Under the pieces are notes generated by a model, which was given only the letters and a program-made list of their open reading frames with translations, did not search any database and was not told where the DNA came from. A DNA stretch of 64,000 nucleotides from Terriglobia bacterium (GTDB lineage Bacteria; Acidobacteriota; Terriglobia; Bryobacterales; Bryobacteraceae), in assembly GCA_020073345.1 (NCBI GenBank), contig JAIQFI010000033.1, positions 1 through 64,000 on the forward strand, in the 5' to 3' direction. Shown piece after piece: positions 9,501 to 64,000 of the stretch (within the stretch, counting starts at the first letter, position 1; every line of letters begins with the position of its first letter). The position numbers and the translations under genes were made by a program.

Positions 9501-9600
9501 GAACAGGCGCGGGAGCCGCGATCAGCGTTTCCCCAGCCACGGTGGTGAGCACGATCCCAGATCCGGCGGCTTTGAGAAAATCGCGACGGGAATAACTCAT
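6514..9600 (-). CDS. Tat-exported molybdopterin hydroxylase with fused [2Fe-2S] domain
   Basis: A 1028-residue catalytic subunit. The start at 9600 is chosen because of GGAGG upstream and a textbook Tat signal (SYSRRDFLK, hydrophobic run to ~28). Residues ~45-190 are the two-cluster iron-sulfur domain: Cys81/86/89/101 (plant-type) and Cys140/143/175/177. Residues ~230-1028 are the aldehyde oxidase/xanthine dehydrogenase domains, with the active-site base Glu985 in KSFSETSIGAVPGAISNAI. Small and large subunits are separate genes in most homologues; here they are one chain. It hydroxylates an aldehyde or N-heterocycle in the periplasm; the substrate is unknown. Its start overlaps the cytochrome c stop (ATGA). 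Confidence 0.9.
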   Translation of the reverse strand: MSYSRRDFLKAAGSGIVLTTVAGETLIAAPAPVPSIAGPFANEKASFIVNGKAYAAEYEARTTLWEVISMKLGLTGTNRSCNRASCGACSVLVDGSPLYSCHTLATEGVGRKILTIEGIGDERNLHPLQRIGHMRVAADCGFCTAGWVVTAKGLLDKNPDPSVDQVKSALAGHICRCAAYPNIIRAVVDSAAVLRGKKIQIEPETDSVVQIKMPMVRDYSTTGGHFPGNEVVEGASKTVTKKWQGYPPENLNVLGKPLTQLPEVSIPRFTGKAQYASRVWFPDLLYAKFLTSPHPHARLLDIDTSAAEKMPGVRHILTYKNAPKLLRPNVARGRILPEPLPQELNLQGETIAIVVAETEDLAQDAVDAIKVNYEVLPFASMLKDTMAPDAPDLGHGKGNLIRHAISPKDFPQTTWADQRGDIEKGLAEADVVKEFTYHFSGGVSVPMQPSGSVAKWDGDRLTVWGMGQGIYPVRATLAAALGVDVSKIRIINKYNGSTFGSARMAAERFYPMIAHLAKVTGRPVKIMLPKDQELAQLQIKPETITKFRVGARKDGRIVAIDHEVYISIGDLDFGVHADGPTNATNQLDLYTSQVSHWRSTWSAYRTNAPRPGPSRSFLQQETKWSWENMIDEMADAFGIDPVEYRLMHVTRLTPGDTRHAYESLPTVEVLQEGAKAFGWEKRTPVAGGQPGRFKRGFGLGMSQHHGGLMGYHEGEEAFAKLAAAPDANIFSTELDLAADGNVTMKIALPDSGSNAATALAALVAEMLGFTTRDHIHLVWGDSDIAPLSDEWFGGRTITLQGAAICSAADKLGKDLLARAANVLKIDGAKLQIRDGVISSADDPKKNTTFAALAKANNGLIRQTGRGVAGGERTGTNKGVGACFVEVEVDTWTGDWHFVRAVYTHDTGLLINPLVSESDMVGSLMESTQVATDPIPWDREFSGTRHYSVGYLSYRLPTIMDMPKSTQVYIDSLEPRWFYGVKSFSETSIGAVPGAISNAIYNACGVRIREHPISREKIMAGLKAQGRRA

Positions 9601-10043
9601 TTCGATCCTCCGTCCTTGGGAAATACGTTCGGCCGGTACTGCTTGTGACACGTCGTACAGGAAGCGTCCAAAGCCCCCGCGAGCGCTGCTAGTGCCTTGC
9701 TGTCCTTGGCCTGCGCGGCTTTGTATGCGGCGTTGCCGGCATCCACCAGCAATTTCGCGTCCTTCATCCAGTCTCCGGTATCTCGCGCACGGCCCCGCAT
9801 CATCAACAGGTTTCCCGATTCCGCGAGCGTCACCGCGCCGCGGCGTACCGCCGCCCACTCGGCGTCATCCTTAGGCCCGCCGCGGTAGATCGCCAGCAGG
9901 ATGTCATTGGACGAAGGATGGATCAGATCGAGCATGAGTTGCCTGACGCTCGCCGTGGGTGGGAACGGTTCGGAAGCCTGGGCAAAGACGATCGAACTAC
10001 CTAGAAGCAGCCCGGCAGTGCACATCGATTTGCGGAAGTACAT
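9597..10043 (-). CDS. Periplasmic class II-like c-type cytochrome
   Basis: A 148-residue exported protein: signal peptide to about residue 21, a helical body and one C-terminal haem site CTTCHKQYRP (Cys129, Cys132, His133). The C-terminal position of CxxCH resembles four-helix class II cytochromes. Its stop overlaps the start of the molybdenum subunit by four bases, so it is the natural electron acceptor for that enzyme (inference from coupling). The window-end gene at 63486 has the same architecture. Confidence 0.82.
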   Translation of the reverse strand: MYFRKSMCTAGLLLGSSIVFAQASEPFPPTASVRQLMLDLIHPSSNDILLAIYRGGPKDDAEWAAVRRGAVTLAESGNLLMMRGRARDTGDWMKDAKLLVDAGNAAYKAAQAKDSKALAALAGALDASCTTCHKQYRPNVFPKDGGSK

Positions 10044-36408: not shown

Positions 36409-37494
36409 ATGTCCGAGCGTCTTCATGATTTGCTCGGACGTCTTGCAGAAGCGGATTCCTTTGCCTGGAGGCCAGGAAACGTTGCAGACAATCCAGGGGA
36501 CCGAATGGACGCATTCTCCCAAATCCTGAGCGGAGTCAAACTGAACGGAGCTGTCTTCTTCAGCGCTGAATTCTCGGCTCCGTGGGGATTTTCGACGCCC
36601 CCGACGAAGGTGATGGCGGCGACACACGCTCCGGGGGCGGCACATCTTGTGCTCTACCATTTGGTCATTGAGGGCGGGGCCTTCATCGAGTTAACGGATG
36701 AACAGTGCATCGAGCTCAGGCCCGGAGATATTGTCATCTTTCCGCATGGGGATCCTCACCACATGAGCAGCGGCAAAGATGCAGCCCGGCCATTCCCGAA
36801 CTACGGGATCAGCGCTAAGATCAGGTCGCGCGACTTGAGTCCCTTACACGCCGGCGGCGGTGGTGAAATTTCGCGGTTCGTGTGCGGGTACATGACGTGC
36901 GACCCCCACCTCAGCCGCCCGATATTGAGCGGACTTCCGCCCGTTTTCAAGGTCAACATCCGAACCGATCGGTCCGGGCACTGGCTGGAGAATTCCATTC
37001 TGCACCTGGTGGAAGAAGCCGCTTCGGGACGAATCGGCAGCGAAGCTATGCTTGCTAAACTCTCTGAGGCCTTATTCGTGGATACGTTACGTCGCTACGT
37101 GGCCACTTTGCCCGAACAACAAACAGGATGGCTCGCGGGAGCGCGCGATCCCATCGTGGGGAAAAGCCTGGGCTTGCTGCATAGCCGCATTGCCCATCCC
37201 TGGACGATCGCGGATCTCGCGGACGAGGTGGGCATCTCGCGGTCCGCACTGGTGGAGCGCTTCACCCGCTATCTCTCCGAGCCACCCATGACATACTTGA
37301 GCCGCTGGAGGCTTCAATTGGCCGCGCGATCGCTCGAAAGCACATCGCGCGGCGTCGCGGAAATCGCCGCCGACGTCGGATACGAATCGGAGGCGTCCTT
37401 CAGTCGTGCATTCAAGCGCGAGTTCGGGCAGCCTCCAGGCCGATACCGTAGCGATCACAAGAGTGCGTCCGTTCAAACGAGCGCCCACGTGTGA
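36409..37494 (+). CDS. AraC-family transcriptional regulator with cupin N-terminus
   Basis: 361 residues from the ATG at 36409; longer upstream starts run into the divergent gene. The N-terminal ~200 residues form a cupin sensor (GGAFIELTDEQCIELRPGDIVIFPHGDPHHMSSG). The C-terminal ~100 residues are the double helix-turn-helix: IAHPWTIADLADEVGISRSALVERF and GVAEIAADVGYESEASFSRAFKREFGQPPGRYR. It likely controls the divergent methyltransferase gene and itself. Two TACAAT copies (36377-36382, 36385-36390) in the spacer could be operator half-sites or a -10. Ligand unknown. Confidence 0.88.
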   Translation: MSERLHDLLGRLAEADSFAWRPGNVADNPGDRMDAFSQILSGVKLNGAVFFSAEFSAPWGFSTPPTKVMAATHAPGAAHLVLYHLVIEGGAFIELTDEQCIELRPGDIVIFPHGDPHHMSSGKDAARPFPNYGISAKIRSRDLSPLHAGGGGEISRFVCGYMTCDPHLSRPILSGLPPVFKVNIRTDRSGHWLENSILHLVEEAASGRIGSEAMLAKLSEALFVDTLRRYVATLPEQQTGWLAGARDPIVGKSLGLLHSRIAHPWTIADLADEVGISRSALVERFTRYLSEPPMTYLSRWRLQLAARSLESTSRGVAEIAADVGYESEASFSRAFKREFGQPPGRYRSDHKSASVQTSAHV

Positions 37495-37531
37495 TACCGT
37501 TGATCGAATCATCTTGAACGGGAGGCATTCC

Positions 37532-39436
37532 GTGCGTACATTTAGGTGGGGAAACGCCGCTCTAGCGGCGGGAATCCTGACGCTTTCAGCAGGAACGTGG
37601 CTGCGGGCGCAACAGGCCGCGAAGCCGGCGAACCCAACGCCAGTAAACGTGGATGGCAAGGTGCTGCGTACTGCGGCCGCGGCCAATGACGCACTGCCCG
37701 GCTCCTGGCTGAGCTATGGACGCAACCAGAACGAGACGCGCTATAGCACGCTGAAGCAGATCAACGACACGAATGCGAAACGCCTGGGGCTGGCGTGGTC
37801 TTATGTAGTCGGTGCCGGGGGCGGCAATCAAGAAGGCACGCCGCTGATGTGGAACAACACCCTCTACGGCATCACCACCTGGAGCGTGGTGTACGCACTG
37901 GACGCGCGCAGCGGCAAGGAGTTGTGGCGCTGGGATCCGGAAATAAACCAGACCGCGGTGCGCCCGAAGATCTGCTGCGGCATCGTGAACCGCGGCCTCG
38001 CGATCTACAACGGCATGATCATCGCCGCGGTCAACGACGGCCGGCTCCAGGCTTTGGACGCGATCACGGGTAAGCCGGTGTGGGAATCGCGCGTGGCGTA
38101 TCCGCAGGATCTCTACACGCTGACGATGGCTCCGCGGATCGCCGGCGGCAAGGTGATCATCGGGGCGTCGGGCGGCGACAAGCCCACCCGTGGATTTTTT
38201 GCGGCGTTTGACGCGGCGACAGGGCATAAGGCATGGACGTTCTATACAGTCCCCGGGAATCCTGAGTTACCGCCGGAGAATGATGCGATGAAGGCTGCCC
38301 TCAAGACCTGGGGCGGCGACTTCTGGACCAAGGGCGGCGGCGGAGCCGTTTGGGACGGCTTCGCATATGATCCCGACGCGAACCTGGTCTACGTGGGCAC
38401 GGGCAACGCCGAACCGTGGGTGCAGAAATTCCGCGGCGCGCAGGGAGTGGACAACTTATACACGTGCTCGATCCTGGCGGTGGACCTTACCACAGGCCTG
38501 CTCAAGTGGCATTTCCAAACCACGCCGAACGACAACTGGGATTTCGACAGCGTGCAGCAGTTGATGCTGCTGGACCTGAACATCAAAGGCAAACAGCGCA
38601 AGGTCATCACTCAGGCGTCGAAGAACGGCTTCTTCTGGGTGCTGGATCGTATTACGGGCGAGTTCATCTCCGGCGCTCCCTATGTGAAGACGAATTGGGC
38701 CAGCGGGCTGGACGCCAAGGGCCGCCCGATCGTGAATCCGGAAGCCTACTACGATCTCGATCCGATCTCGCTGTTCCCGACCGGCGGCGGCGCCCACAAC
38801 TGGTCGCCGATGTCCTACAATCCCGCCACCGGCTACGTGTACATCCCGGTGTTCCTGCAACCGTTCACCTACGCGGCGACAAAAGAGCTTGCACCGGGCT
38901 CCACCGGCTACGCGTTCGGCGCGGGCACTCCCAAGCCGATCGGAGGGCCGGTGATCGGGCCGCCTACGGCCGAGGGCATGCGCGCAGCCCTGCAGGCGTG
39001 GGACCCGGTGAACCAGAAGCTCGCATGGCGCATCGACGGCGGGGGCGGCATCGGCGGCGGCACGGCGACCACCGCGGGAAATCTGGTGTTCCAGGTGATC
39101 AACGACGGGCGCTTCCGAGCGGTGACGGCCGACAAGGGCGAGATCCTGTATGAGATCCAGACCGGGCGCACAGGCATGGCTCCGCCGATCACTTATGAGG
39201 CGGACGGTAAGCAATACGTGGCGTTTCAGGGCGGTTTGGGGCGTCCGGCGACGACCGTGGGTCCGAATGACGCGAAAATCGACAACCCGCCGATGATGTT
39301 CGTGTTCGCGCTGGACGGGAAGGCGGAATTGCCAAAGCCTGCTCCACCACCCGCTCCGCCCGGTGCTCCGCCACAGAACAACAATAACCCGCCGCCGGCG
39401 GCTCCCGGAGCGGCTCCGGAGTTGCAGCAGCGCTAG
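37532..39436 (+). CDS. Secreted PQQ-dependent alcohol-dehydrogenase-like beta-propeller
   Basis: 634 residues. The GTG at 37532 is chosen for GGGAGG six bases upstream and because it opens a signal peptide (RTFRWGNAALAAGILTLSAG). Eight-bladed quinoprotein fold with tryptophan-docking motifs. The vicinal disulfide pair Cys148-Cys149 in KICCGIVNRG and likely catalytic Asp334 in TPNDNWDFD match methanol/ethanol dehydrogenase-type enzymes. There is no cytochrome c domain, so electrons need a separate acceptor. The C-terminal tail is unusual: a Pro/Ala/Asn-rich stretch (PAPPPAPPGAPPQNNNN). Stands alone between araC and vapBC. Confidence 0.85.
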   Translation: MRTFRWGNAALAAGILTLSAGTWLRAQQAAKPANPTPVNVDGKVLRTAAAANDALPGSWLSYGRNQNETRYSTLKQINDTNAKRLGLAWSYVVGAGGGNQEGTPLMWNNTLYGITTWSVVYALDARSGKELWRWDPEINQTAVRPKICCGIVNRGLAIYNGMIIAAVNDGRLQALDAITGKPVWESRVAYPQDLYTLTMAPRIAGGKVIIGASGGDKPTRGFFAAFDAATGHKAWTFYTVPGNPELPPENDAMKAALKTWGGDFWTKGGGGAVWDGFAYDPDANLVYVGTGNAEPWVQKFRGAQGVDNLYTCSILAVDLTTGLLKWHFQTTPNDNWDFDSVQQLMLLDLNIKGKQRKVITQASKNGFFWVLDRITGEFISGAPYVKTNWASGLDAKGRPIVNPEAYYDLDPISLFPTGGGAHNWSPMSYNPATGYVYIPVFLQPFTYAATKELAPGSTGYAFGAGTPKPIGGPVIGPPTAEGMRAALQAWDPVNQKLAWRIDGGGGIGGGTATTAGNLVFQVINDGRFRAVTADKGEILYEIQTGRTGMAPPITYEADGKQYVAFQGGLGRPATTVGPNDAKIDNPPMMFVFALDGKAELPKPAPPPAPPGAPPQNNNNPPPAAPGAAPELQQR

Positions 39437-48047: not shown

Positions 48048-49907
48048 TCACGGCAACCGAAACGCGATCATGGTCTCCTGCGCGGCGATCAAGATATACT
48101 GTTTTCCGTCCCGGCCCAGGTAGGTGATGGGATTGGCGAACGCATCCGCCGGCAGTTTCGTCTCCCACAGCAGTTTTCCCGTCTTGGATTCGTAGGCGTG
48201 GAAGCGCTGATCGTCCGTGGCGCCGATGAACAGCAAGCCGCTCGCGGTGGCTATGGGACCACCTATGTTGTACGATCCCGTGTTCATGACGCCGATCTTC
48301 TCCAAGGATTCGACGCGTCCGAACGGTATCCTCCACGCGACATCCCCGGTATTCACATTGATCGCGAACAGCTCGCCCCACGGCGGCGACTGGCACGGCC
48401 AGCCCGTAGCCGGGTTCGTGATGGCGCCCGCGTTCCGGCGAATAAACGGCATTTGACTCGAATCGCCCGCTCCGCCGATCTTCGTGGGGCGTTCCTTCGC
48501 CGGAACCTGTGCCACCATCTTCTGCACTCCGCCCCTGTCGTGCGAGTTTATGAAGAAGTAGCCCAGCTTGGGATCGTAGCTGCCGCCGCCCCAGTTGAAG
48601 CCGCCATCCGGACCGGGAAAAACAACCGTATCGGTCATGCGCACCGGAGCATACGGTCCATCGTTCTGGGCGTTCTTGAACAGCTCTTCGCAATATTTCT
48701 GCTGTTCCGGAGTGAACTTCGTAATCTCGTCGCGATTCCAGGTCATGCGCGCAAGCGGCGGCGGTTTCAGCGGAAATGGCTGCGTGGGCGAGTACCACTC
48801 GCCGGGCACGTCGCCTTTCGGCACAGGCCGCTCCTCCAGACCGAAGATGGCTTTTCCCGTCCGGCGATCCAAGATAAATACCAGGCCCGTCTTGGCCGTC
48901 TGGATTAACGCCGGGATCCTCTTGCCATCCTTGACCACGTCGATCAGCGTCGGCTGCGGCGGCAGATCGGTGTCCCAAAGGTCGTGGTGAGTGGTCTGCA
49001 GGTACCACTTCATTTTTCCGGTCATCGCATCCACGGCGACCAGCGAGTTCCCGAACAGATTCGCGCCGGGCCGGTCTCCGCCGTAGCGATCGTCGCTGGG
49101 CCCACCGATCGGCATCAGCAGCGTGCCGGTCTCCGTGTCCACGGTAAACGTGCTCCATACATTTACGCCGGAGCGGTTCTTCCAGCCGTCGTCGAGCCAG
49201 GTCTCATGCCCGACTTCTCCCGGTTGGGGAACCGTGTGGAACGTCCAGACCAGTTTCCCCGTAGCCGCATCCCAGGCGCGGACATCGCCACGCCCCCCGT
49301 ACGAACCGTTGTCTTGCAGGTGCGTTCCGGTGAACACCAGATTCTTGTAAATCGCGGGCGCGCCGTTCAATCCATAGGGAGCACTCTCCAGCCCCGGACC
49401 CTTCATCCCGGGTTTCAGATCGAGTTCTCCTTCCTTGGCGAAACCCGGCACTAACTTACCGGTGCGAGCGTTCACCCCGATCAGGAAGCCGTCTTCGGTG
49501 CCGAAGAAAATTGTCGGAGGAGCATTTCTGTTTCCAGGCCAGTATGCGATCCCGCGAGAGGCGCGCGCGGCGTGCTGGTGATCGAACTTCCAGATGGTCT
49601 TTCCCGTTTCGGGTTCCACGGCGACCAGGCTTTGAAACGGAGTAACGAAGAACACGACGTTATTCACCATGAGTGGCGTGGTCTTCGAAGCCTGCTGGGC
49701 CTTGGCGATGGAAGGAGGGCGCGTTTCGTACTTCCAGGCCTGAACTAGTGTGGATACGTTGCCCGGGTTGATTTGCGTGAGAGGCGAGTAGCGCTGAGCC
49801 CCAGGGTCCCGGCCATAAGACGGCCAGTCATTCTGCGCAATGGCCACTTGGACCGCGATGGCCGCCAATCCAATGTTCGCAACGATAAGCAAAGTTCGGA
49901 TTCGCAT
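48048..49907 (-). CDS. Secreted PQQ-dependent dehydrogenase, glucose-dehydrogenase-like propeller
   Basis: 619 residues with a signal peptide and no membrane domain. Eight-bladed quinoprotein: DWPSYGRDPGAQRYSPLTQI, GIAYWPGNRNAPPTIFFGT, TTHHDLWDTDLPPQPTLID (likely catalytic Asp in HHDLWD), TGLVFILDRRTGKAIFG, INVNTGDVAWRIPFG, ATDDQRFHAYESKTGKLLW. The last blades resemble membrane glucose/quinate dehydrogenases. No cytochrome c domain. Follows its upstream neighbour by ten bases, so the two form an operon. Convergent with the ankyrin gene. Confidence 0.85.
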   Translation of the reverse strand: MRIRTLLIVANIGLAAIAVQVAIAQNDWPSYGRDPGAQRYSPLTQINPGNVSTLVQAWKYETRPPSIAKAQQASKTTPLMVNNVVFFVTPFQSLVAVEPETGKTIWKFDHQHAARASRGIAYWPGNRNAPPTIFFGTEDGFLIGVNARTGKLVPGFAKEGELDLKPGMKGPGLESAPYGLNGAPAIYKNLVFTGTHLQDNGSYGGRGDVRAWDAATGKLVWTFHTVPQPGEVGHETWLDDGWKNRSGVNVWSTFTVDTETGTLLMPIGGPSDDRYGGDRPGANLFGNSLVAVDAMTGKMKWYLQTTHHDLWDTDLPPQPTLIDVVKDGKRIPALIQTAKTGLVFILDRRTGKAIFGLEERPVPKGDVPGEWYSPTQPFPLKPPPLARMTWNRDEITKFTPEQQKYCEELFKNAQNDGPYAPVRMTDTVVFPGPDGGFNWGGGSYDPKLGYFFINSHDRGGVQKMVAQVPAKERPTKIGGAGDSSQMPFIRRNAGAITNPATGWPCQSPPWGELFAINVNTGDVAWRIPFGRVESLEKIGVMNTGSYNIGGPIATASGLLFIGATDDQRFHAYESKTGKLLWETKLPADAFANPITYLGRDGKQYILIAAQETMIAFRLP

Positions 49908-49917
49908 GTTTTACTCG

Positions 49918-50721
49918 CTATCGAACCAGGTGCTGAAGGTCCTTGTTGTTATCCTGGCAAAAGAAATCGATCATCTCTGTGTCGACCAGGGGCCTCATAT
50001 GCAAAGACACAGTCCACGGTTTGGTGAATACCTTGGGGTCATTGACGGTCACATCGACGTCGAGGCCGCCGAAGTTGGGCCGGCGGATGCGCTCCGTGAC
50101 GCGTGCTTCGCTCGAAAAGAAATTGCCGGCCGTGTCGAGCCAGGAATCATCGCGATAGCCCGCCGATTCCACCACCAGCGTGTCGCCTTCCCAGTGCGCG
50201 ACCGAATAACCGCTCCACGTCGGCACCATGTCTTCGGGGAGTTTGCGGCCGTCGAAAAAAACCTGCCGGTAACTGGCGTTGAATTCGTCCAGGATGACGA
50301 GCTGAGCGGGCGTCTGGAAAATCTTCACCGTTTCAGGGAAGGCCCAGGCGCGCGGGAAGTTGGGTGGCATGCAGCGCATGTGGGGGTCGATGTAGGCGAC
50401 GTCCTTGGAGCGGCTCTTAACCAGATCCGCCGCCCAGGGCTGGTAGGGGAGGCCGTCCTTCATGCCTGCCGCGAAGTTCACCACCTGCGGCGTCAGGGGA
50501 AGCTCGGTGCACTGCACGCCGCGCTGACTGGGGTCACAGGTCAGCACATCGCGCGGGATCCACATTCCCGAGAAGTCGGGTTTACCTCCGGCAGTCTTGG
50601 GCGCGGACGCGGAGAGGTCCGGTTTCCCATCGGTGGCGCGGGGGATTCCAGGTGTAGGCAGGTTGACCCACTGAGCAGCGACGGGAACCCCCAGTAAAAT
50701 GACGAGCCGGATAATGCGCAT
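49918..50721 (-). CDS. Secreted protein of unknown function
   Basis: 267 residues. Short signal (IIRLVILLGVPVAAQ), then a Pro-rich region with two similar GKPDLSASAP / GKPDFSGMW units, and a C-terminal domain GYSVAHWEGDTLVVESAGY...DDSWLDTAGNFFSSEARVTERIRR. The GxxxxWEGDTLVV core is shared with the 421/422-residue proteins at 51938 and 62173. No catalytic motif recognised. First gene of an operon with the downstream PQQ propeller. A TATCAT element lies seven bases before the ATG, so the message may be leaderless. Confidence 0.78.
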   Translation of the reverse strand: MRIIRLVILLGVPVAAQWVNLPTPGIPRATDGKPDLSASAPKTAGGKPDFSGMWIPRDVLTCDPSQRGVQCTELPLTPQVVNFAAGMKDGLPYQPWAADLVKSRSKDVAYIDPHMRCMPPNFPRAWAFPETVKIFQTPAQLVILDEFNASYRQVFFDGRKLPEDMVPTWSGYSVAHWEGDTLVVESAGYRDDSWLDTAGNFFSSEARVTERIRRPNFGGLDVDVTVNDPKVFTKPWTVSLHMRPLVDTEMIDFFCQDNNKDLQHLVR

Positions 50722-51937: not shown

Positions 51938-53203
51938 ATGAAAGCCCGTTTGTTCGTTGTTTTGTTCACCTTCGCCGCACTGATCGCAGTCTCCCGGATG
52001 GCGCCGGTGCCGGCCACCGTGTTCGCGCAGCAGACGGGCGCGCCACAGGGCAAAGGCTTCGGACGAGCGGGGACGCCTACCTTCGCGGGACCGCCGGCGG
52101 GAATGCAGGCCTTGCCGAATGATTTGTTCACCTCCAAGAACTTCTACCAGGACAGGGCTCTTTGGACGGACAAGCGGTACTTCCGCTGCAACTCTCCCCG
52201 CCAGATAACCGACATCTGGACCTCGGGCCGAATTGGCGCCAAGCCGCCCGCGTCCGCTTCGTGGGGCGACTGCAACATCGATTACTCGCGAGACAAAATC
52301 GTTAGTCCTTATCCCTACAAGACCGCCAAGGAACATTACGACGCATTGATGGCGAAGGCCAAGGCCGCAGGCGGCCCGACGGTTTATACGAAGGCCACGG
52401 TACCCGACTGGGATGGATGGTATGGCCGCGACAACTCCTATTCCAATTCCCAATGGACCTGGGGAACCATCAACCAGGTTCCTACAATCCTGTCGCTGCT
52501 CACTCCGGAATACCAGAAGCGCATGGTACAGATGAACTATCACGAGGGCGTGAATAATGCGCCGCAGTGGAACGCCTCCTTCTGCTATCCCGAAGGATTC
52601 ATGCGCTGGTGGTCGCAGGCCTCGGCAGGCGGGAATTTCCAGCTCACCATGAACGCGAGCCAAGTCCAGTTCCTGTCCGGCCTCGCTGCCAACTTCCTGC
52701 GGCAAGTCTTGATCGGAAAGGAGCATGTGCAAAAGGTCCCGCAGTGGTATGGGGAAACGGTTGGATTCTGGGATGGAACCACTCTGATCACCTGGACCGC
52801 GAATGTGCAAGGCTGGACCCTGTCGCACTCGATGTTCGAATTCAGCGACAAGCTGCAAACCATCGAAACCTATACGCCCGTCTACAATAACGGCGCCTTC
52901 GTGGGGCTGGATCACGAAGCGGTCTTCTACGATCCCGACGCGTTCGTCGCGCCCCTGCACCTCACTATGCGGTTCAATCGGGCTGCGGGTCTGGATAATG
53001 CCACCCGGCGGTACACCTACATCGAATGCTTGAGCAATCTCCGGGATGTGGATGGCCATCCGACGCAACTCACGGCGGCCAGCGACCGCTTCATCGACTA
53101 CTATGGCCGGCCGTGGGCCAAGAACTGGGAAAAATATTTCGAGGTTGGTTGGGATAAGCCGCAGGACGACCTTCCTAAGGAAATACTAGATATCTTTAAG
53201 TAA
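51938..53203 (+). CDS. Secreted 421-residue protein, copy A (unknown function)
   Basis: Signal peptide ending TVFAQQ, then a largely unrecognised secreted protein. Conserved features shared with copy B at 62173: [18 protein letters not shown], [11 protein letters not shown]-like segment, [63 protein letters not shown] and an almost identical C-terminal 40 residues. Six Cys suggest disulfides. The GFWDGTTL box resembles the domain in the 267-residue protein at 49918. GGGAG upstream. First gene of an electron-transfer operon with DUF6152, DUF6644 and a cytochrome c-PQQ protein. Confidence 0.8.
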   Translation: MKARLFVVLFTFAALIAVSRMAPVPATVFAQQTGAPQGKGFGRAGTPTFAGPPAGMQALPNDLFTSKNFYQDRALWTDKRYFRCNSPRQITDIWTSGRIGAKPPASASWGDCNIDYSRDKIVSPYPYKTAKEHYDALMAKAKAAGGPTVYTKATVPDWDGWYGRDNSYSNSQWTWGTINQVPTILSLLTPEYQKRMVQMNYHEGVNNAPQWNASFCYPEGFMRWWSQASAGGNFQLTMNASQVQFLSGLAANFLRQVLIGKEHVQKVPQWYGETVGFWDGTTLITWTANVQGWTLSHSMFEFSDKLQTIETYTPVYNNGAFVGLDHEAVFYDPDAFVAPLHLTMRFNRAAGLDNATRRYTYIECLSNLRDVDGHPTQLTAASDRFIDYYGRPWAKNWEKYFEVGWDKPQDDLPKEILDIFK

Positions 53204-53217
53204 ACAAGGAATAACAG

Positions 53218-53700
53218 ATGAACAAGAAAGCCTTGACGATGGTTGTGCCGGCAGCACTTCTATTAGCGCTATTTGTTACACCGGCCTTTTCGCACCATTC
53301 GTTCGCCATGTACGATCAGACCAAGACCGTAACGCTGACTGGAGCGGCCAAGCAGTTCGTGGCCCAGGCCAACCATGCCGAAATCCATTTCATTCTGATC
53401 GCGCCCGATCGCAAGGGCCTGGCGAAGGGTCCCGACGGCAAATACGTAGAGTGGGGCGTCGAGATGGCGGGCGCGGCTGCGGTAGCGCAGCAAGGGATTA
53501 CGGCGGAGACGTTTAAGGTTGGCACGGTATTCAGCGTCAAGCTGAATCCACTGCGGGATGGCAGCAATTTTGGATCCCGGATAGGCGCCATCGCCAAGTG
53601 CCCCACGGATCCGGCGACCAACAAGCCTAAACTGCCCGAAGCCGATAAGCACTGCGACTCCGTTCCTGGCAGCACACTGCTCGGCGGGACGACCTTTTAA
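53218..53700 (+). CDS. DUF6152-family secreted protein
   Basis: 160 residues: signal peptide ending TPAFS, then the family hallmark HHSFAMYDQTKTVTLTGAAKQF at the mature N terminus, where two histidines could bind metal. AAGGA precedes the ATG. The remainder is a small beta domain. DUF6152 proteins accompany DUF6644 and quinoprotein genes in Acidobacteria and Proteobacteria; biochemical role unknown. Fourteen bases after copy A. Confidence 0.85.
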   Translation: MNKKALTMVVPAALLLALFVTPAFSHHSFAMYDQTKTVTLTGAAKQFVAQANHAEIHFILIAPDRKGLAKGPDGKYVEWGVEMAGAAAVAQQGITAETFKVGTVFSVKLNPLRDGSNFGSRIGAIAKCPTDPATNKPKLPEADKHCDSVPGSTLLGGTTF

Positions 53701-53708
53701 GCGGTACT

Positions 53709-54218
53709 GTGAAGTCTTTCGCCGAGTGGCTGTCGACGACGTTTCTCAGTGTCTTCATCCAGAACCACAACAGTTGGGCCATCCCGACGATTCAGTCCAT
53801 TCACATCGTCGGCATCGCAATCGTATTGGGATCCGTGTTCATGATCGATCTTCGCCTGCTGGGCTTGGCGGGCATGGACCAAACGCTCCGGCAAACCAGC
53901 AACCGGTTCGGTCCCTGGCTGATGGGCGCGCTGTGGCTGATGCTCGCCACGGGGATCCTGATGGTGATTGGAGAGCCGGTGCGTGAACTCATCACGTTTT
54001 CGTTTTGGCTGAAGATGTTGCTGGTGGCGGTGGGCACGCTGATCGCGGTGATATTCCAGAGGGCCGTCCGCAAACACGAAGAAGTTGTGGAGACTCGCAG
54101 AGCGGTTAAGTATTTCGCGGTGCTGACGTTCCTGATCTGGGCATGCATTATTGTTCTCGGCCGCCTGATCGCCTATGACCATGTCTGGGGTTCCTGGTCG
54201 CCGGCAGCGAGGTCCTAA
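53709..54218 (+). CDS. DUF6644-like membrane protein, first copy
   Basis: 169 residues, four predicted helices. IHIVGIAIVLGSVFMIDLRLLG in helix 1 (His32), LMGALWLMLATGILMVIGE, FWLKMLLVAVGTLIAVIFQ, LTFLIWACIIVLGRLIAY. Starts at GTG. A His in helix 1 and GRLIA near the end recur in the next gene, so the pair is paralogous. The four-helix pattern with membrane histidine could hold haem b and pass electrons from the periplasmic quinoprotein to quinone; this is inference. Confidence 0.78.
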   Translation: MKSFAEWLSTTFLSVFIQNHNSWAIPTIQSIHIVGIAIVLGSVFMIDLRLLGLAGMDQTLRQTSNRFGPWLMGALWLMLATGILMVIGEPVRELITFSFWLKMLLVAVGTLIAVIFQRAVRKHEEVVETRRAVKYFAVLTFLIWACIIVLGRLIAYDHVWGSWSPAARS

Positions 54219-54221
54219 GCG

Positions 54222-54776
54222 ATGGATATCGCCGCGCTTCTCAGTTGGCTCGAGGCAACCAGTCTTGCGGCTAGAATTCGCGATTCGCTCTTTCTGTTTC
54301 CTCTCCTCGAGTCGTTTCACGTGATTGGCCTGGCTCTGGTCTTCGGGACAATTGCCGTCATCGACCTTCGGCTGTTGGGAGCCGCATCCACCGACCGGCC
54401 GTTCAAGCGGATGGCATCCGACATCCTGAAATGGACCTGGGCGGCCTTCGTCTTGACCGCGTTGACCGGATCGCTGATGTTCCTCACCAACGCGGGCGTG
54501 TACTATCACAACTTCTATTTCCGCTCGAAGATGGCGCTGCTGGTTCTCGCCGCGGTCAACATGCTTTCCTTTGAGCTGACTTTGGGGCGCACGGCTCATC
54601 GTTGGGATAAAGCGGCTGCCGCGCCTCCGGCCGGCCGAGCGGTTGCGATTTTGTCGCTCGCGATTTGGATTAGCGCGATCTTCGCGGGCCGCCTGATCGG
54701 CTTCACCACCAGCCGCGCTAAGCAGACTGCGCCTGCGCCGGCGGATTCAAGTCTCGAGGAGCTGTTCCAAAAATGA
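54222..54776 (+). CDS. DUF6644-like membrane protein, second copy
   Basis: 184 residues. Helix 1 [23 protein letters not shown] (His33) mirrors the previous gene, with a later [10 protein letters not shown]. Helix 3 region [22 protein letters not shown] adds His. A polar C-terminal tail ([22 protein letters not shown]) is absent from copy one. Gap of three bases to the previous gene. Two different DUF6644 paralogues in tandem suggest a heterodimer. Confidence 0.78.
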
Positions 54777-54786
54777 AGGAGGCACT

Positions 54787-56946
54787 ATGAAGACACGAAT
54801 GGTTCTCGCGATGACGACGGCAGCCTGCGGCGTGGTGATTTTGGTTGCCCAGCAGCGTCCGGCCGGACCCTATACGCAAGGGCAGGCCGCTGCGGGACGC
54901 GCACTCTACGACACTAATTGCACCTCATGTCATTCGCCCGATCTGAGCGGGCGCGAAGGTCCGCAATTGGCGGGCGCGAACTTCCTGGCACAGTGGGGTG
55001 ACCGGACCGCCGGCGAATTGATCACCTTCATGCAATTCACGATGCCTCCGGGCGGAGCCGCTCTTCCGGGCGATTCGTATGTAAACCTGGCTGCATTTAT
55101 TCTGGATGCCAATAGCGCGCGGGCGGGGAACCAGGCGCTTACCGCCGCAACAAGTGTCGCCATTCGCAGCGTCGCATCCGGCCAGCGCGCCGCGTATCTT
55201 CAAGCGGGCGGCGGCCCCGCATCGGTCGAAGCCAAGCAGGACAACTCCAAACAAGCTAAGCAGGCGAAACAAGAAAAGCAGGTGCCCCGCGGCATCACCG
55301 TTGAGGGCGAAGTGAAAAACTACGTTCCGGTCACGGACGCGATGTTTCGCAACCCGGATCCGGCCGACTGGCTGATGATCCGGCGCGATTACAAAGCCAG
55401 CTCGTTCAGCCCGCTGAACCAGATCACCACGCAGAACGTCAACGAATTGCGGCAGGTGTGGAGCTGGGCCATGCAGGATGGAAGTCCTCTCGGCAACGAT
55501 CCCGCGCCCATCGTCCACAACGGCGTGCTCTATGTGAACAACGCTGGCGGGGTGTTGCAGGCTCTGGACGCCAAGACCGGCGACCTGATTTGGGAGCATC
55601 GCTACGGAACCAACGCGGGCGCACCGGCGATGCGCGGCATCACCATCTACGGCGATAACGTCTACTTGACCAGCAACGATGCGCACCTGATGGCCTTCGA
55701 CGCACGCAATGGGCAGATCGTTTGGGATACCACCATCGGCGATCGCTCCAAGAATCAGCACTCCACCACCAGCGGACCGATTGCCGTGAAAGGCAAGCTG
55801 ATCCAGGGTCTGAGCGGTTGCCAGCAGTATGGCGGGGAGAAGTGCTTTATTAGCGCCTACGACGCCAAGACGGGCAAAGAGATTTGGCGCTTTTACACTA
55901 TTGCTCTGATGGGAGAGCCGGGAGGTGACACCTGGGGAGGTCTCCCCGATCGCTCGCGTGTGGGCGCGGAAACCTGGATCACTGGCAGCTACGATCCTGA
56001 CTTGAACCTCACTTATTGGGGAACCGCACAGGCCAAGCCTTGGATGCGCGCGAGCCGCGGATCGGGCAACGGCGCGACCTTATACGCTAACTCGACGCTG
56101 GCGCTGAATGCCGATACTGGGAAACTGGCCTGGTATTACGATCACGCGCCCGGCGAAACGCTGGATCTGGACGAGGTCTTCGAGCGGGTGCTGGTGGACG
56201 ATCAGGGCCAGAGTTACGTCTTCAGCGCCGGCAAACCCGGCATCCTGTGGAAGCTGGACCGCAAGACGGGGAAGCATCTGGGCCACAAAGAAATGGTGTT
56301 CCAGAATGTGTATGATTCCTTCGATCCAGCCAGCGGCGAGCCACACTTGCGTAACGATATCGTGGAACAAGGCATCGGCCAATGGGTGGCGAGTTGTCCT
56401 TCGACCGAAGGCGGCAAGAACTGGCCCGCGATGTCGTACTATCAGCCCGGCAATCGTCTGATTGTGCCTCTGAGCCAGAGCTGCATGGAATTCGCCGCGC
56501 AGGAAGTGGATAAATCGGACGGCAACGGGGCCGGAGGCGGCGCGCGCAACCGTTACTTTGAGATGCCTGGATCGGGCGGAAATGTCGGCAAGCTGGCGGC
56601 CTACGATGTCCGCACACTGCGCGAGCTGTGGAAATACGAGCAGCGGGCGCCATTTCTCACAGGCGTCTTGTCGACCGCGGGCGGCGTGGCGTTCGTGGGC
56701 GACCTGAATCGCATGTTACGTGCTTTCGATGCCAATACCGGCAAGATTCTGTGGGAGACGCGGCTTCCTGCCGCCGTGCAGGGCTTTCCTCTGACGTTTT
56801 CTGTGGGCGGCAAACAGTATCTCGCCGTGACCACGGCCAACGGCGGCGGCAGCCCTCGGAACGTGCCTCGGTTGGTGGCTCCGGATGTCCACGGTCCAGA
56901 TACGGGTAACGCGCTCTACGTGTTCGCGTTGCCGGACAGAAGATAG
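54787..56946 (+). CDS. Cytochrome c-PQQ propeller fusion dehydrogenase
   Basis: 719 residues: signal peptide, cytochrome c domain with CTSCH (Cys45, Cys48, His49; [18 protein letters not shown]), a Lys/Gln linker ([14 protein letters not shown], ~150-165), then an eight-bladed quinoprotein ([84 protein letters not shown]). PQQ oxidises an alcohol or sugar and passes electrons to the fused haem; haem first, propeller second is the reverse of quinohaemoprotein alcohol dehydrogenases. Last gene of the DUF6152/DUF6644 operon. Confidence 0.88.
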
Positions 56947-59156: not shown

Positions 59157-60947
59157 CTAGTCCAGGCCGAACGCCAGCACCACGTTCCCTTGCGAGCCTT
59201 GCTGAATTCCGGTGTAGCCGGACGCCACATAGACCATTCCGCCAACAATCACCGCGCCGGCGGGGCCAAACGAGCCGCCATTCGCGATCACGCCGTTCAC
59301 GGTCTGGAAATCCTGCTTGGCGTCGAAGGTCCAGATCACTTTGCCCGCAGCATCCACTGCTCGCAAAATACCGTCCCAACCTCCGTTGAAAACAACGCCC
59401 GGAATCGAACTCGCCGGGTTCGCCTGGCCTCGACGGTCCGCATTGATCGGCGCGTTCCAGTCCACTTTACCGGTTGTCAGCTGGAGCGCTTTCAATCCGC
59501 CTCCGGGTTGCTGCAACGGATAGTAAACGCGCTGGCCGTCCGATGCGCCGCCCCAAACCACCAAACCCGAGGCCGATGGCGCCTGCGTTTCCCACAACTG
59601 GGTGCGCCAAACCAGCTTGCCATTGGCGTCGGGATCGAGGCCGATCGCCACGCCGCCCTTGCCCGCCGCCACCAAAATATCCTTGCCGTTCACGGTTTGA
59701 AGAATTGCCGAGGAGCCGCCGAAATCGTAGTCGGGTCCCAGCTTTTCCGGACAATTCGTCTCCGGCGCATTCGTCGCGCGGCAGCCGCTCATGAAGGAAT
59801 CGCCCGCAAACTCCTGGTGGTGCCACACCATCTTTCCGTCTTCCATGCGCAGCGCCAGGATCGAATCGCTGGTCGACGCCGCGATCCGGCCGAAGCTGTT
59901 CCCGGTACCCACGTAGATCAGCTTGCGCTTGGCATCGATGGTAGGCGTGTTCCACACCGAGGCCCCCGCCGGTCCCCACATCTGCTTCCCGTGCGAATTC
60001 TCGCCGATTTGGCGCAGCGGCTCTTGAATGCTCTGCGCGCGCCACAGAACCTTGCCTGTGTTGGCGTCCACCGCGACGACGGTCCCGCGCGATTTGCAGC
60101 ATTCATAATCGAGATTTGAGCCTGTCAGCGTCTCGGTTCCCGACAAGGGCACGTACAACCGGCCGTCGTAATAGGCGGCGGTGGCGCTGAGGTTGTTCAA
60201 GCCGTCCTTTACCTCGGCGTTCTTCCAGAGCAGTTTGCCATCGTGCGCGTCGATCGCATAGGCCGTCGACGAACGGGTCACGAAAAACACCGCGTAACGC
60301 GTGCCCGGATATCCGGAAATCGGCGCGATAATGGGCGCGAACCGGCCGAACATATCCGAGCGGTAGGCCCAGTGGACGCATCCCGACTTGGCATCCATCG
60401 AATAGACCACGCCGTCATCGCTGCCGACGAACACACGGCCGAAAGCCACCGCGGGCTGCGAATAAAGGCTCGATCCCCCAGGTAGTCCGAACGCCCATTT
60501 GAGCTTCAGCCGGGGCACATCGGCGGCCGTAAGTCCGGCGGCGCGTGCCGTCTGGAACCGGGAATTCGTAATGCCGCCCCATCCCGACCACGACGGCGTT
60601 GCGTTGATATCCCCCAATGCGGGATTCGACGCGCAGCGGTTCGTCATCTTCGTCACGTCGCCCGCGGCGGGATCGTTGAGCGGGCGCTTGCCCAGAAACT
60701 CGGCAACGACGCGGCGCTCGCGGCTGGTCATCGACGACGCCTGGTCCTTCATTTTGCCCTTCATCAAGGCATCGAAGATACTTTCGGTTGGCATCGCGTT
60801 GAGTGCCGGGATCGCGGGCGCCCCGCCTTCGGCCGAATGGCAGCTCGCGCATTTGTTCTGAAAAATCGCCTGTCCCGGGGGCTGGGGTTGAGCCAGAAGT
60901 AAGCCGGGAAAGAAGCTGAGTGCCATCGCAAATCGAAGTTGTCGCAC
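59157..60947 (-). CDS. Cytochrome c-PQQ dehydrogenase, polyvinyl-alcohol-dehydrogenase-like
   Basis: 596 residues. The start GTG at 60947 is supported by GAGGA seven bases upstream and a signal peptide (RFAMALSFFPGLLLAQ). Haem site CASCH (Cys33, Cys36, His37), then a propeller with the polyvinyl-alcohol-dehydrogenase signatures GPAGASVWNTPTIDAKRK, LIYVGTGNSF and LGPDYDFGGSSAILQ. Also a vicinal pair YECCKSRG. Oxidises secondary alcohols or similar in the periplasm; the real substrate is open. Divergent from the aldose dehydrogenase gene by 28 bp. Confidence 0.87.
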   Translation of the reverse strand: MRQLRFAMALSFFPGLLLAQPQPPGQAIFQNKCASCHSAEGGAPAIPALNAMPTESIFDALMKGKMKDQASSMTSRERRVVAEFLGKRPLNDPAAGDVTKMTNRCASNPALGDINATPSWSGWGGITNSRFQTARAAGLTAADVPRLKLKWAFGLPGGSSLYSQPAVAFGRVFVGSDDGVVYSMDAKSGCVHWAYRSDMFGRFAPIIAPISGYPGTRYAVFFVTRSSTAYAIDAHDGKLLWKNAEVKDGLNNLSATAAYYDGRLYVPLSGTETLTGSNLDYECCKSRGTVVAVDANTGKVLWRAQSIQEPLRQIGENSHGKQMWGPAGASVWNTPTIDAKRKLIYVGTGNSFGRIAASTSDSILALRMEDGKMVWHHQEFAGDSFMSGCRATNAPETNCPEKLGPDYDFGGSSAILQTVNGKDILVAAGKGGVAIGLDPDANGKLVWRTQLWETQAPSASGLVVWGGASDGQRVYYPLQQPGGGLKALQLTTGKVDWNAPINADRRGQANPASSIPGVVFNGGWDGILRAVDAAGKVIWTFDAKQDFQTVNGVIANGGSFGPAGAVIVGGMVYVASGYTGIQQGSQGNVVLAFGLD

Positions 60948-60963
60948 AATGTCGTCCTCGGCG

Positions 60964-60969
60964 TATAGT
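60964..60969 (+). promoter_or_regulatory. -10 element TATAGT, likely leaderless start
   Basis: TATAGT ends six bases before the ATG at 60976. A weak -35 (TTGTCG, 60939-60944) lies 19 bases upstream and falls inside the start region of the divergent gene. No Shine-Dalgarno precedes the ATG. Confidence 0.4.
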
Positions 60970-60975
60970 ATAACG

Positions 60976-62139
60976 ATGAAGCACTCGCTCGTCACCGCCG
61001 TCATGTTTGCCGCAGTTCTCCACGGTCAAGCCAACGTCATCGATCTTCCGCGCGGCCCGTTGGGGGATGGTCCGTTCATTTTCGATACTGCCGAGCAGCA
61101 CAAGATCAAGGTCACCGTCATCACCAAGGCTCTCGACCGCCCCTTCGGCATGGCCTTTCTCCCCGGCGGGAATATTCTGGTGAGCGAACGCGGGCCGGGT
61201 AGGCTTCGCATCATTCGCGATGGCGTGCTCGATCCGCAACCGCTCGGCGGAGTCCCCAAGGTCAATGCCCGCGCGAACGCCGGTCTGTATGATTTTGTCC
61301 TCCATCCTAAATACGCTCAGAATCAGTGGATCTATTTCGCCTTCAGCAAGCCCGGCGAAGGGAATCTGTCCGCCACCGTTCTCGCTCGCGCCAAACTGCA
61401 AGGCAACTCGCTGACGCAAGTCCAGGAACTCTACAGCACAGAGCCGGGGACCAACATAGGCGGTTCGCGTCTCGCCTTTGCACCCGACGGCACGATTCTC
61501 ATGACCACGCCTGCCGCCGGCGAGGTTCAAAAAGCGCAGGACCCTATGAGCGCCTACGGCAAGATCCTTCGCCTGAATGACGACGGCACTATTCCACGCG
61601 ACAATCCTTTCGTCGGCAAACAAGGCTATCGTCCGGAGATTTACACGCTCGGCCACCGCGATCATCTGGGTCTGACCGTTCATCCCTTCGGCACTATCTT
61701 CAACGCCGAACACGGACCCAATGGCGGCGATGAAGTGAACCTGATCAAACCGGGCGCCAACTACGGCTGGCCTGTAATCAGTTTCGGCCGCCAATACGAC
61801 GGCACGCGTATTCTTCCTTACAAAGAAGGCATGGAGGTTCCGCAGATCGTGTGGGTGCCATCCATTGGACCCTCTGGAATCATGTTTTACACCGGAGATA
61901 AGTTTCCGGCTTGGAAGAACAACCTGTTCGTTGGCAGCGCACGCTATGGCGAGATCCGCGGTTTCGGCCACCTGGAGCGCGTGGTATTGAACGACAAGTT
62001 CGAAGACATCCGCCGTGAGAGGCTTTTGGACGATCTGCATCAGCGCTTCCGTGACGTCCGGCAGGGCCCGGATGGGAACATCTACGCACTAACAGACCAG
62101 GAGGTGGGTGCGCTGCTCAAGATCGAACCGGCGCAATAG
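60976..62139 (+). CDS. PQQ-dependent aldose sugar dehydrogenase (YliI/Asd type)
   Basis: 387 residues from the ATG at 60976 (signal peptide HSLVTAVMFAAVLHGQ). Soluble glucose-dehydrogenase-type six-bladed propeller: ALDRPFGMAFLPGGNILVSERG, GLYDFVLHPKYAQNQWIYFAFS, GHRDHLGLTVHPFGTIFNAEHG, PNGGDEVNLIKPGANYGWPVISFG. The usual HxxP after GHR is DHLG here. The family oxidises free aldoses to lactones. Monocistronic, divergent from the PVA-dehydrogenase-like gene. Confidence 0.87.
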   Translation: MKHSLVTAVMFAAVLHGQANVIDLPRGPLGDGPFIFDTAEQHKIKVTVITKALDRPFGMAFLPGGNILVSERGPGRLRIIRDGVLDPQPLGGVPKVNARANAGLYDFVLHPKYAQNQWIYFAFSKPGEGNLSATVLARAKLQGNSLTQVQELYSTEPGTNIGGSRLAFAPDGTILMTTPAAGEVQKAQDPMSAYGKILRLNDDGTIPRDNPFVGKQGYRPEIYTLGHRDHLGLTVHPFGTIFNAEHGPNGGDEVNLIKPGANYGWPVISFGRQYDGTRILPYKEGMEVPQIVWVPSIGPSGIMFYTGDKFPAWKNNLFVGSARYGEIRGFGHLERVVLNDKFEDIRRERLLDDLHQRFRDVRQGPDGNIYALTDQEVGALLKIEPAQ

Positions 62140-62172: not shown

Positions 62173-63441
62173 CTATTTAAAGATGTCGAGAATTTCCTTG
62201 GGGAGCTCGTCCTGCGGCTTGTCCCAGCCCACTTCGAAATACTTCTCCCAGTTCTTGGCCCACGGCCGGCCGTAGTAATCGACAAAGCGGGGGTCGGCGT
62301 TGGTGAGTTGCGTCGGCCTGCCATCGGTGTTTTGGATATTGCTCAGGCATTCGATGTAGGTGTACCGGCGATTGGGATCGTCCGGAGTCGCCCGGCGAGC
62401 GAAGCGATAGCTGGCACGGACCGGAGCAACGAAGGCTTCGGGATCGTAAAAGATCGTCTCATGATCCAGGCCCACGAACTTGCCGCCGGCGTCGTAAGCG
62501 GGTTTGAAGGTCTCCACCGTCTCCAGCTTGTCGCTGGTCTCGAACATGGAGTGAGTCAGGGTCCAGCCCTGAATATTCGCCGTCCAGGTAACGAGAGTTG
62601 TTCCGTCCCAGAATCCGATGGTCTCGCCATACCACTGGGGGACCTTCTGCACGTGCTGCTCCTTGCCGACCATCACCTGGCGCAGGAAGTTGTCCGCGAT
62701 ACCGGAGATCATCTGGACATTCCACGTGGTCATCGTGAGTTGGAAATTTCCGGCCTGCGAAGGCTGCGACCACCAGCGAATGAATCCTTCCGGATAACAG
62801 AATGATGCATTCCACTGCGGAGCGTTGGTCACGGCCTCGTGATAGATCAACTGGACCATGCGCTTCTGATACTCCGGAGTGAGTAAAGACAGGACCGTGG
62901 GCGCCTGGCTGTATCCCCAGATCCATTCCGAGCCATGATCGGCCTGCGCGTCACGCGCATAGTACCCATCCCAATCGGGCACCGTCGCCTTTGTGTACAC
63001 GGTCGGCCCGCCCTTTGCCTTCGCCGCAGCCATTAAAGCCTGGTAGTGTTCCTTGGCCGTTTTGTATGGGTACGAGCTCAGAAGACTCTCGCGTGGCAGG
63101 TCGACGTTACAGTCGGCCCAGGAAGCCGACTCAGGCGGCTTGGTGCCAATCCGCTGCTGATTCCACATTTCCGATAGCAGGCGCGGCGTATTGCAGCGGT
63201 AATAACGCTTGTCCATCCACAGCGCCTTGTCTTTGTAAAAGTTCTTTGAAGTGAACAAATCCGTGGGCAGTGGCTGGACCCCTTCCGGGGGCCCCAGGAT
63301 TACCGGCGGAGTTCGTCCTTTCCCCTGCTTTCCCTGGGCAGGCTGTTGGGCAAAGGCGGTTGTCGATGGCATTAACGAACCCCAGGCGAGCGCGATCAGG
63401 AACGTGACCGTGAACAGAACAGCGGGTAGTCTAGGTCTCAT
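62173..63441 (-). CDS. Secreted 422-residue protein, copy B (unknown function)
   Basis: Paralogue of the protein at 51938, roughly two-thirds identical by eye. The start at 63441 is chosen over an ATG 12 codons upstream, because AGGAG stands ten bases before it and the N terminus then matches copy A. Signal peptide ends TAFAQQ. Shared: [83 protein letters not shown]. Copy B contains one extra residue (VGKEQHVQ). Its operon starts with the cytochrome c at the window end. Confidence 0.8.
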
Positions 63442-63485
63442 TTCGGCTTTACTCCTAGCGATCGTTTCATGATACATCGCGCGTG

Positions 63486-64000
63486 CTATTCAACGATTCC
63501 ATCCGCTTTTGCGGCTTCCTGAGCCCTTTTGTCCTTGGGATACCAGTAGCGCAGATGGCAGCTCTCGCAAGCCTTGTCGATGCCATCGAGCCCCAGAAGC
63601 AAAGCGTCTTTATCCTTGGCATCCACAGCCTTCATCGCCACAGAGGCGGCATCCCGCAGCCTCTGTGCGCGGCGGATGAAGGTCCAACCGTCGGTGTCCA
63701 GCAGTTGCTGAATCTCCTCCGGCTCGCTTTCGACCTCGGGGTTCTTCGACCGATCCGTGGGCCGCGCGGCCCTGCGGCCCTGCAGGAAATTCGGCGCGTC
63801 CCGTAGAACCATGAGGCGCTGCCGGACGTTCTCCCATTCCGCGTCGGTGTGCGGCGCGATTTCCCTGGTTCCGTGCTCGTCCTCGATCGTCTGGACCGAC
63901 TGGAACAGGAAATCTCCATTGGGATCCACCATGGAGTGCATGACGTCCTTGACGGTGGCGGGGCCCCGTGCCGCCACAATAACGCCCGCCCATAGAAGCA
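63486..64000 (-). CDS. Class II-like c-type cytochrome (5' end beyond window)
   Basis: At least 171 residues. An internal GTG at 63977 is not the true start, because the frame stays open to the edge and encodes [12 protein letters not shown], part of a signal peptide. Helical body, then haem site [12 protein letters not shown] near the C terminus. Same architecture as the cytochrome c at 9597. It precedes copy B by 44 bases and is probably its co-transcribed electron carrier. Confidence 0.8.

Follow-up and report, generated by a model that had tools for sequence, protein, structure and literature searches.

What two adjacent copies of a small membrane protein do in an operon that also encodes secreted proteins and a cytochrome is the question raised by positions 51938–56946 of contig JAIQFI010000033.1 from a Terriglobia bacterium (assembly GCA_020073345.1), of which the first 64,000 nucleotides, here called the window, were analysed. 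An initial sequence-only reading had proposed that the five genes of this operon encode an electron-transfer complex, in which a cytochrome c–pyrroloquinoline quinone (PQQ) protein passes electrons through two DUF6644 paralogues to quinone. Our results suggest a different partner. We propose, with a probability of about 0.5, that the two DUF6644 proteins form a split CydA-like di-haem b heterodimer that exchanges electrons between quinone and a class II cytochrome in the periplasm. The operon itself, five genes on the + strand with gaps of 3–14 bases, was borne out by open reading frame (ORF) and Pfam checks: all five frames are open, and the successive gaps are 14, 8, 3 and 10 bases, the last of which contains AGGAGG. 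The genes are as follows.

51938–53203, + strand: P1, secreted protein of 421 amino acids; broad secreted family, no Pfam match
53218–53700, + strand: P2, DUF6152 (PF19649), secreted, 160 amino acids; Pfam match of 60.1 bits
53709–54218, + strand: P3, DUF6644 clade B by Pfam, tree and model, 169 amino acids, four membrane helices, GTG start
54222–54776, + strand: P4, DUF6644 clade A by Pfam, tree and model, 184 amino acids, four membrane helices
54787–56946, + strand: P5, N-terminal cytochrome c plus PQQ-type beta-propeller by Pfam and NCBIfam, 719 amino acids

The DUF6644 pair

Both P3 and P4 belong to DUF6644 (PF20349), with scores of 49.1 and 47.9 bits over the Pfam gathering score of 27 bits, and the closest relatives of P3 are found in metagenome-assembled genomes (MAGs) of Bryobacterales. 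The family matches 14 times in this 6.2 Mb genome and up to 25 times in close relatives, and a sample of 396 genomes spanning the phylum includes 53 that have it, most with two or four copies. Among the loci fetched, tandem pairs hold 160 of the 174 DUF6644 domains. In a tree of 80 such pairs, a single clade (A) takes exactly one member of 70 pairs and none of the other 10; P4 falls inside this clade and P3 outside it, in clade B. About 40 such pairs would be expected at random; the two gene orders account for 38 and 32 of the 70. A natural B–A fusion of 343 amino acids occurs in another genome. Such a combination of one A with one B protein, regardless of gene order, suggests that the hetero-pair is old, and these sequence comparisons indicate that P3 and P4 most likely form a heterodimer. 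Low-scoring DUF6644 matches at five loci (L053, L054, L086, L089 and L110) were rejected as class II cytochromes, the profile having absorbed a fused sequence. The profile also caught an ORF of 312 amino acids at L084 (14741–15679, + strand), the N terminus of which (NHFPTIG) resembles another four-helix membrane family.

Two positions in each paralogue stand out by their conservation.

53802–53804, + strand: His32 codon of P3, helix 1, candidate haem b ligand; 99% His, aligned with the helix-1 His of CydA and of HemJ
54012–54014, + strand: Lys102 codon of P3, helix 3, invariant; 100% Lys
54318–54320, + strand: His33 codon of P4, helix 1, candidate haem b ligand; 99% His in clade A
54528–54530, + strand: Lys103 codon of P4, helix 3, invariant; 100% Lys

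The two histidines and the GRLI motifs were found where the sequence-only reading had placed them, and its reservation that the histidines might not be conserved fell away: 161 of the 162 DUF6644 sequences have the helix-1 His. The same number keep it together with the helix-3 Lys (99–100% within each clade), a conserved residue absent from that reading; helix 3 has no conserved Glu. The helix-4 Arg of the GRLI motif occurs in all of clade A and in 63 of the 91 clade-B sequences. In the structural model, helix 1 has its His at the ninth residue and helix 3 its Lys at the sixth, and the Arg lies about eight residues before the end of helix 4. As His and Lys are near the starts of their helices and Arg is near the end of its own, all three should be at one side of the membrane. 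Lys and Arg number 3–4 in loops 1–2 and 3–4 and less than one in loop 2–3 and the C terminus, the termini being avoided. By the positive-inside rule, this charge bias places the His/Lys/Arg side in the periplasm, in agreement with a C-terminal cytochrome c fusion (see below), which must be periplasmic.

To model the pair we used a tandem query that reads through the single stop between P3 and P4, which share a frame; in a large single-domain alignment, sequences of both clades aligned to the second tandem half, and only tandem reads and near orthologues were therefore used. The model reached a predicted local distance difference test score (pLDDT) of 84.9 and a predicted TM-score (pTM) of 0.83, and the two paralogues fold in it as one CydA-like eight-helix unit. 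The ten best structural alignments obtained with VIA-align were all to CydA-type chains of cytochrome bd (Z 19.9–21.7 over 275–282 residues, root-mean-square deviation 3.4–4.2 Å), followed by alternative complex III (Z 14.5–17.4) and polysulfide reductase PsrC (13.7); unrelated chains scored 9.7 or less. Foldseek likewise placed bd oxidase subunits at ranks 1–6 with a probability of 1.00, although the E-values were just 0.017–0.063, and rank 1 was a CydB-type chain (9r2g_D). In Pfam, no CydA (PF01654) row was returned for P3 or P4 at E 0.1, and a profile search of solved structures with the tandem found nothing. As predictions go, the DUF6644 pairing and fold are well supported.

In CydA, the haem ligands His19 and His186 are in helices 1 and 5, the first helices of its two bundles. 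The DUF6644 histidines are placed likewise, and all four of the CydA profile alignments tested, themselves below significance, match the DUF6644 His with one or other of these residues. CydA consists of a pair of four-helix bundles (PMC6853902), and in AppC, the CydA homologue of Escherichia coli bd-II, His19 holds haem d while His186 and Met393 hold haem b558 (PMC8585947). A second likeness was found to HemJ: the hhalign score between DUF6644 and HemJ was 31, whereas 20 block-shuffled controls did not exceed 22; the alignment pairs the His residues and likewise the Lys residues, at an hhalign probability of 26%. HemJ is called a b-type haem protein in the title of a 2018 Journal of Biological Chemistry paper cited in PMC11662147. 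The CydA-like fold and His placement, taken with the alignment to HemJ, make haem b the likely cofactor of DUF6644. The Pfam search gave no HemJ (PF03653) row for P3 or P4, and no PF03653 match was found in this genome, despite its 14 DUF6644 matches, or in the close relatives searched; HemJ was accordingly rejected as a haem source family here.

Cytochrome and secreted partners

A class II (c′-like) cytochrome lies within 1.2 kb of 21 of the 80 DUF6644 pairs, a density of 0.084 per kb versus 0.002 beyond 3 kb (about 42 times). These proteins have a single C-terminal CxxCH and four-helix length. Each of the 19 members aligned matches PF01322 with an E-value of at most 0.05, although most single members are under its 26.5-bit cut-off, and their profile finds solved cytochromes c′ (E 2.3e-6). 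Two fusions join such a cytochrome directly to DUF6644, one to a clade-A domain in a gammaproteobacterial MAG (L090) and one to a B–A tandem in this genome. The loci from other phyla (L089, L090 and L092) come from MAG contigs and could reflect misbinning, a doubt from which plasmid records of cultured strains are free. The fusion in this genome runs across the window edge and belongs to a second, related cassette about 5 kb from the first.

63486–64000 in the window (63486–64772 on the contig), − strand: DUF6644(B)–DUF6644(A)–cytochrome c′ fusion, 428 amino acids, identified as an ORF with a c′ match
62173–63477, − strand: second P1-family secreted protein, 434 amino acids, directly behind the fusion; hidden Markov model match, no Pfam match

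The window holds the last 515 bases of the fusion, which correspond to the cytochrome c′ domain (CESCH). Past the window edge are genes for a cytochrome c plus c′-like protein (65167–66102, + strand) and a DUF6152 protein (66846–67247, + strand). A different arrangement is seen at L111 (4356–7146, + strand), where a gene for a class II cytochrome separates four DUF6644 genes into two halves and a second such gene, next to DUF6152, follows 1.4 kb downstream. The c-type cytochrome partner proposed in the sequence-only reading thus recurs, even in fused form, but what usually accompanies DUF6644 is a class II cytochrome and not the cytochrome c–PQQ protein.

In P5, a cytochrome domain with CxxCH is combined with a propeller that resembles solved PQQ dehydrogenases. 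However, in none of 14 places do its homologues (52–89% identity, six of them at 80–89%) adjoin DUF6644, and quinoproteins are not enriched near DUF6644 pairs (0.011 per kb versus 0.014 far off). In the ten nearest cassettes (L084–L093), the P1-family gene and the DUF6644 pair are kept and DUF6152 is present in nine, with P5 adjoining none. The four-gene block of secreted protein, DUF6152 and two DUF6644 genes is therefore syntenic elsewhere, as the sequence-only reading required, and the fifth gene is not; P5 was dropped from the conserved unit after the 14 homologue loci and the density test. P5 also scores under both quinoprotein cut-offs, at 367.6 of 480 bits for TIGR03075 (PQQ alcohol dehydrogenase) and 314 of 650 bits for TIGR04528 (acido-empty-quinoprotein), and a search of this genome for PqqC found none over the cut-off (best 41.8 of 240 bits), so either PQQ would have to come from scavenging or P5 may have an empty propeller. 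Within this lineage P5 probably became attached to the operon, where it may feed or draw electrons, but it does not belong to the conserved device.

P1 has no Pfam match, and no solved relative was found. By phmmer it shares a broad secreted family with the protein encoded at 49918–50721 (− strand); this distant homology, with shared invariant Cys, Arg and Glu, led us to drop the view of P1 as an unrelated novelty. A 73-member alignment of the family has invariant C216, C364, E310 and G272 and near-invariant R255. P1-family and DUF6152 genes often adjoin DUF6644, Alphaproteobacteria included, and annotated DUF6152 and DUF6644 genes lie near each other in Novosphingobium humi and Paracoccus pantotrophus. 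In the latter, on plasmid pPAN2 (L043, 7609–8474), DUF6152 stands beside a single DUF6644, flanked on one side by a penicillin acylase gene and paa genes and on the other by an ABC transporter and aromatic catabolism genes. Around DUF6644 pairs, DUF6152 is 11 times denser than far off, and 43 of the 80 pairs have none within 1.2 kb.

P2 scores 60.1 bits against the DUF6152 gathering score of 27 bits. Its predicted mature form begins with HHSF, as the sequence-only reading had noted, and contains the following residues.

53293–53298, + strand: His1-His2, predicted mature N terminus of DUF6152, after ...TPAFS; HH in 61 of 61
53374–53376, + strand: His28 of mature DUF6152, in an NPH motif in most relatives; His in 61 of 61

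All three histidines are invariant among the 61 sequences, and the residues before the His-His pair are mostly of the AxA cleavage type; the cleavage site was predicted by eye. The AlphaFold2 model (pLDDT 93.1) matched OB folds only, with Z up to 8.0, and a profile search of solved structures with DUF6152 gave one doubtful adhesin match only. From its sequence conservation, the three-His set is probably a metal site, with copper as a first guess.

Proposed electron transfer and competing readings

We propose the following working model. P3 and P4 would form an obligate heterodimer in which two four-helix subunits make one eight-helix unit, as if CydA had been divided between two chains. The helix-1 His of each subunit probably ligates one haem b close to the periplasmic face; the helix-3 Lys would be the second haem ligand or a close neighbour, and the helix-4 Arg would lie near the propionates. 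Electrons would move, in either direction, between the membrane quinone pool and a periplasmic c′-like cytochrome. In this operon, the P1-family protein and DUF6152 would form the periplasmic end of the device, and the DUF6152 metal might be a further electron acceptor or donor. The pair together with a small external cytochrome is a probable electron-transfer device in several bacterial groups. Our literature search found no description of such a device and no paper naming DUF6644, DUF6152 or acido-empty-quinoprotein. The electron-transfer part of the sequence-only reading thereby gains some support from the hetero-pair, the CydA-like fold and the recurrent cytochrome, with a partner that differs from P5.

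Among known systems, CydA/AppC (PF01654) shares with the predicted DUF6644 unit an eight-helix core of two four-helix bundles, a first-helix His in each, which ligates haem in AppC and is a candidate ligand in DUF6644, and sites near the periplasmic face. CydA differs in being a single polypeptide that also has a ninth helix, a long Q-loop and the Glu residues of its oxygen chemistry, whereas DUF6644 consists of two short chains with a helix-3 Lys replacing Glu99/Met393, has no CydB partner and is accompanied by a cytochrome c′. The ActC/ActF subunits of alternative complex III and the NrfD/PsrC anchors resemble the pair in their pseudo-symmetric four-plus-four helices and in transferring electrons from quinone to a periplasmic partner. 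In contrast, DUF6644 is made of two chains with an invariant His, and the Z scores to these proteins are lower (13.7–17.4); to our knowledge, ActC and NrfD contain no haem.

Several observations weigh against a split CydA-like di-haem unit. Loop 2–3 of DUF6644 has only about 13 residues and no CydA-type Q-loop. The tandem model crosses a stop codon, and its alignment comprised 21 sequences (20 relatives added). The DUF6644–CydA profile alignments made with hhalign are below significance (E 0.08–0.5), for which reason a claim of sequence homology was dropped and ours is limited to the fold. Fold alone is no proof of haem, because CydB shares it with quinone replacing the haem (PMC6853902). Clade A was picked as the best of many, with a support of 0.79, and the pairs are not independent, which makes the figure of 70 in 80 descriptive. 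Finally, a class II cytochrome gene stands within 1.2 kb of no more than 21 of the 80 pairs, and the operon studied here does not include one.

Histidine-brace copper sites are recognised by an N-terminal His, as in the CopC domain of Bacillus subtilis YcnJ; when copper is limiting, YcnJ requires both this brace and a conserved His of its CopD part (PMC13344008). The N-terminal His of DUF6152 led us to consider CopC–CopD-like copper handling, in which DUF6152 would hold Cu(II) and pass it to the DUF6644 pair for import or reduction, with no need of haem. Like YcnJ and PcoCD, the cassette sets a secreted N-terminal-His protein beside a polytopic membrane protein with a conserved His. The invariant DUF6152 histidines and the enrichment of this family near the pairs agree with such a role, as does a CopD (PF05425) match of P3 (21.6 bits, E 3e-4). 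That match is below the 32.1-bit cut-off, however, and P4 has none; the DUF6152 model resembles OB folds, with no CopC-like barrel among its matches; and more than half of the pairs lack a nearby DUF6152. The repeated association and fusion with c-type cytochromes suits redox work better, and the best folds are bd oxidase subunits, though no CopD entry was visible among the structures compared. We know of no cytochrome c′ partner or tandem hetero-pair in CopCD systems. We therefore regard copper handling as rather unlikely.

A HemJ-like haem b membrane enzyme, in which His and Lys would help to oxidise a membrane or periplasmic substrate and pass the electrons to quinone or a cytochrome, appears less likely still. 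HemJ (PF03653) shares four membrane helices, the helix-1 His and the helix-3 Lys with DUF6644, its b-type haem (on the strength of the title cited above) would fit, and as many as 25 copies per genome would suit varied substrates. However, the similarity is weak and there is no known substrate; HemJ is a cytoplasm-facing haem synthesis enzyme that, as far as we know, has no cytochrome c partner and is not hetero-paired. The original five-gene complex, with P5 oxidising an alcohol or sugar and delivering electrons through DUF6644 to quinone, draws on the 10-base gap that joins P5 to the operon, on its dehydrogenase-like domains and on a second cytochrome c–PQQ gene (59157–61004) that adjoins the second cassette. 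The 14 homologue loci, the ten cassette relatives, the lack of quinoprotein enrichment and the possibly empty propeller argue against it, leaving it improbable. DUF6644 could also be a cofactor-free structural or transport protein like CydB, the Foldseek rank-1 fold, in which quinone sits where CydA has haem (PMC6853902). The invariant intramembrane His and Lys in both partners and the repeated cytochrome fusion make this very unlikely.

If the split CydA-like electron-transfer unit is correct, DUF6644 and DUF6152 gain a testable electron-transfer role, for which the invariant His and Lys of DUF6644 are direct mutation targets. A hetero-pair resembling CydA in halves would also bear on the way in which cytochrome bd, whose own eight-helix unit is pseudo-symmetric, evolved from four-helix haem proteins, of which HemJ is an example. 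A bolder extension, which we consider a long shot, is that the cassette is a complete extracytoplasmic redox enzyme, in which electrons would pass from quinol through the di-haem pair and cytochrome c′ to a DUF6152 copper (His-His plus His28) that activates oxygen on a P1-bound substrate; on this view, the numerous copies in a genome would act on different substrates.

Other genes in the window

This genome encodes 21 P5 homologues at E 1e-60 or better. Besides P5, the window contains quinoprotein-type propellers at 37406–39436 (+ strand), 48048–49907 (− strand) and 59157–61004 (− strand), one of them with a cytochrome c domain. Between the two cassettes lies a glucose/sorbosone dehydrogenase-type propeller (60949–62139, + strand; PF07995, 364 bits). 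A lone class II cytochrome c (9597–10043, − strand) is encoded beside molybdenum hydroxylase genes (MoCoBD plus 2Fe-2S, 6514–9858; FAD subunit, 5528–6517), for which it is a plausible electron acceptor.

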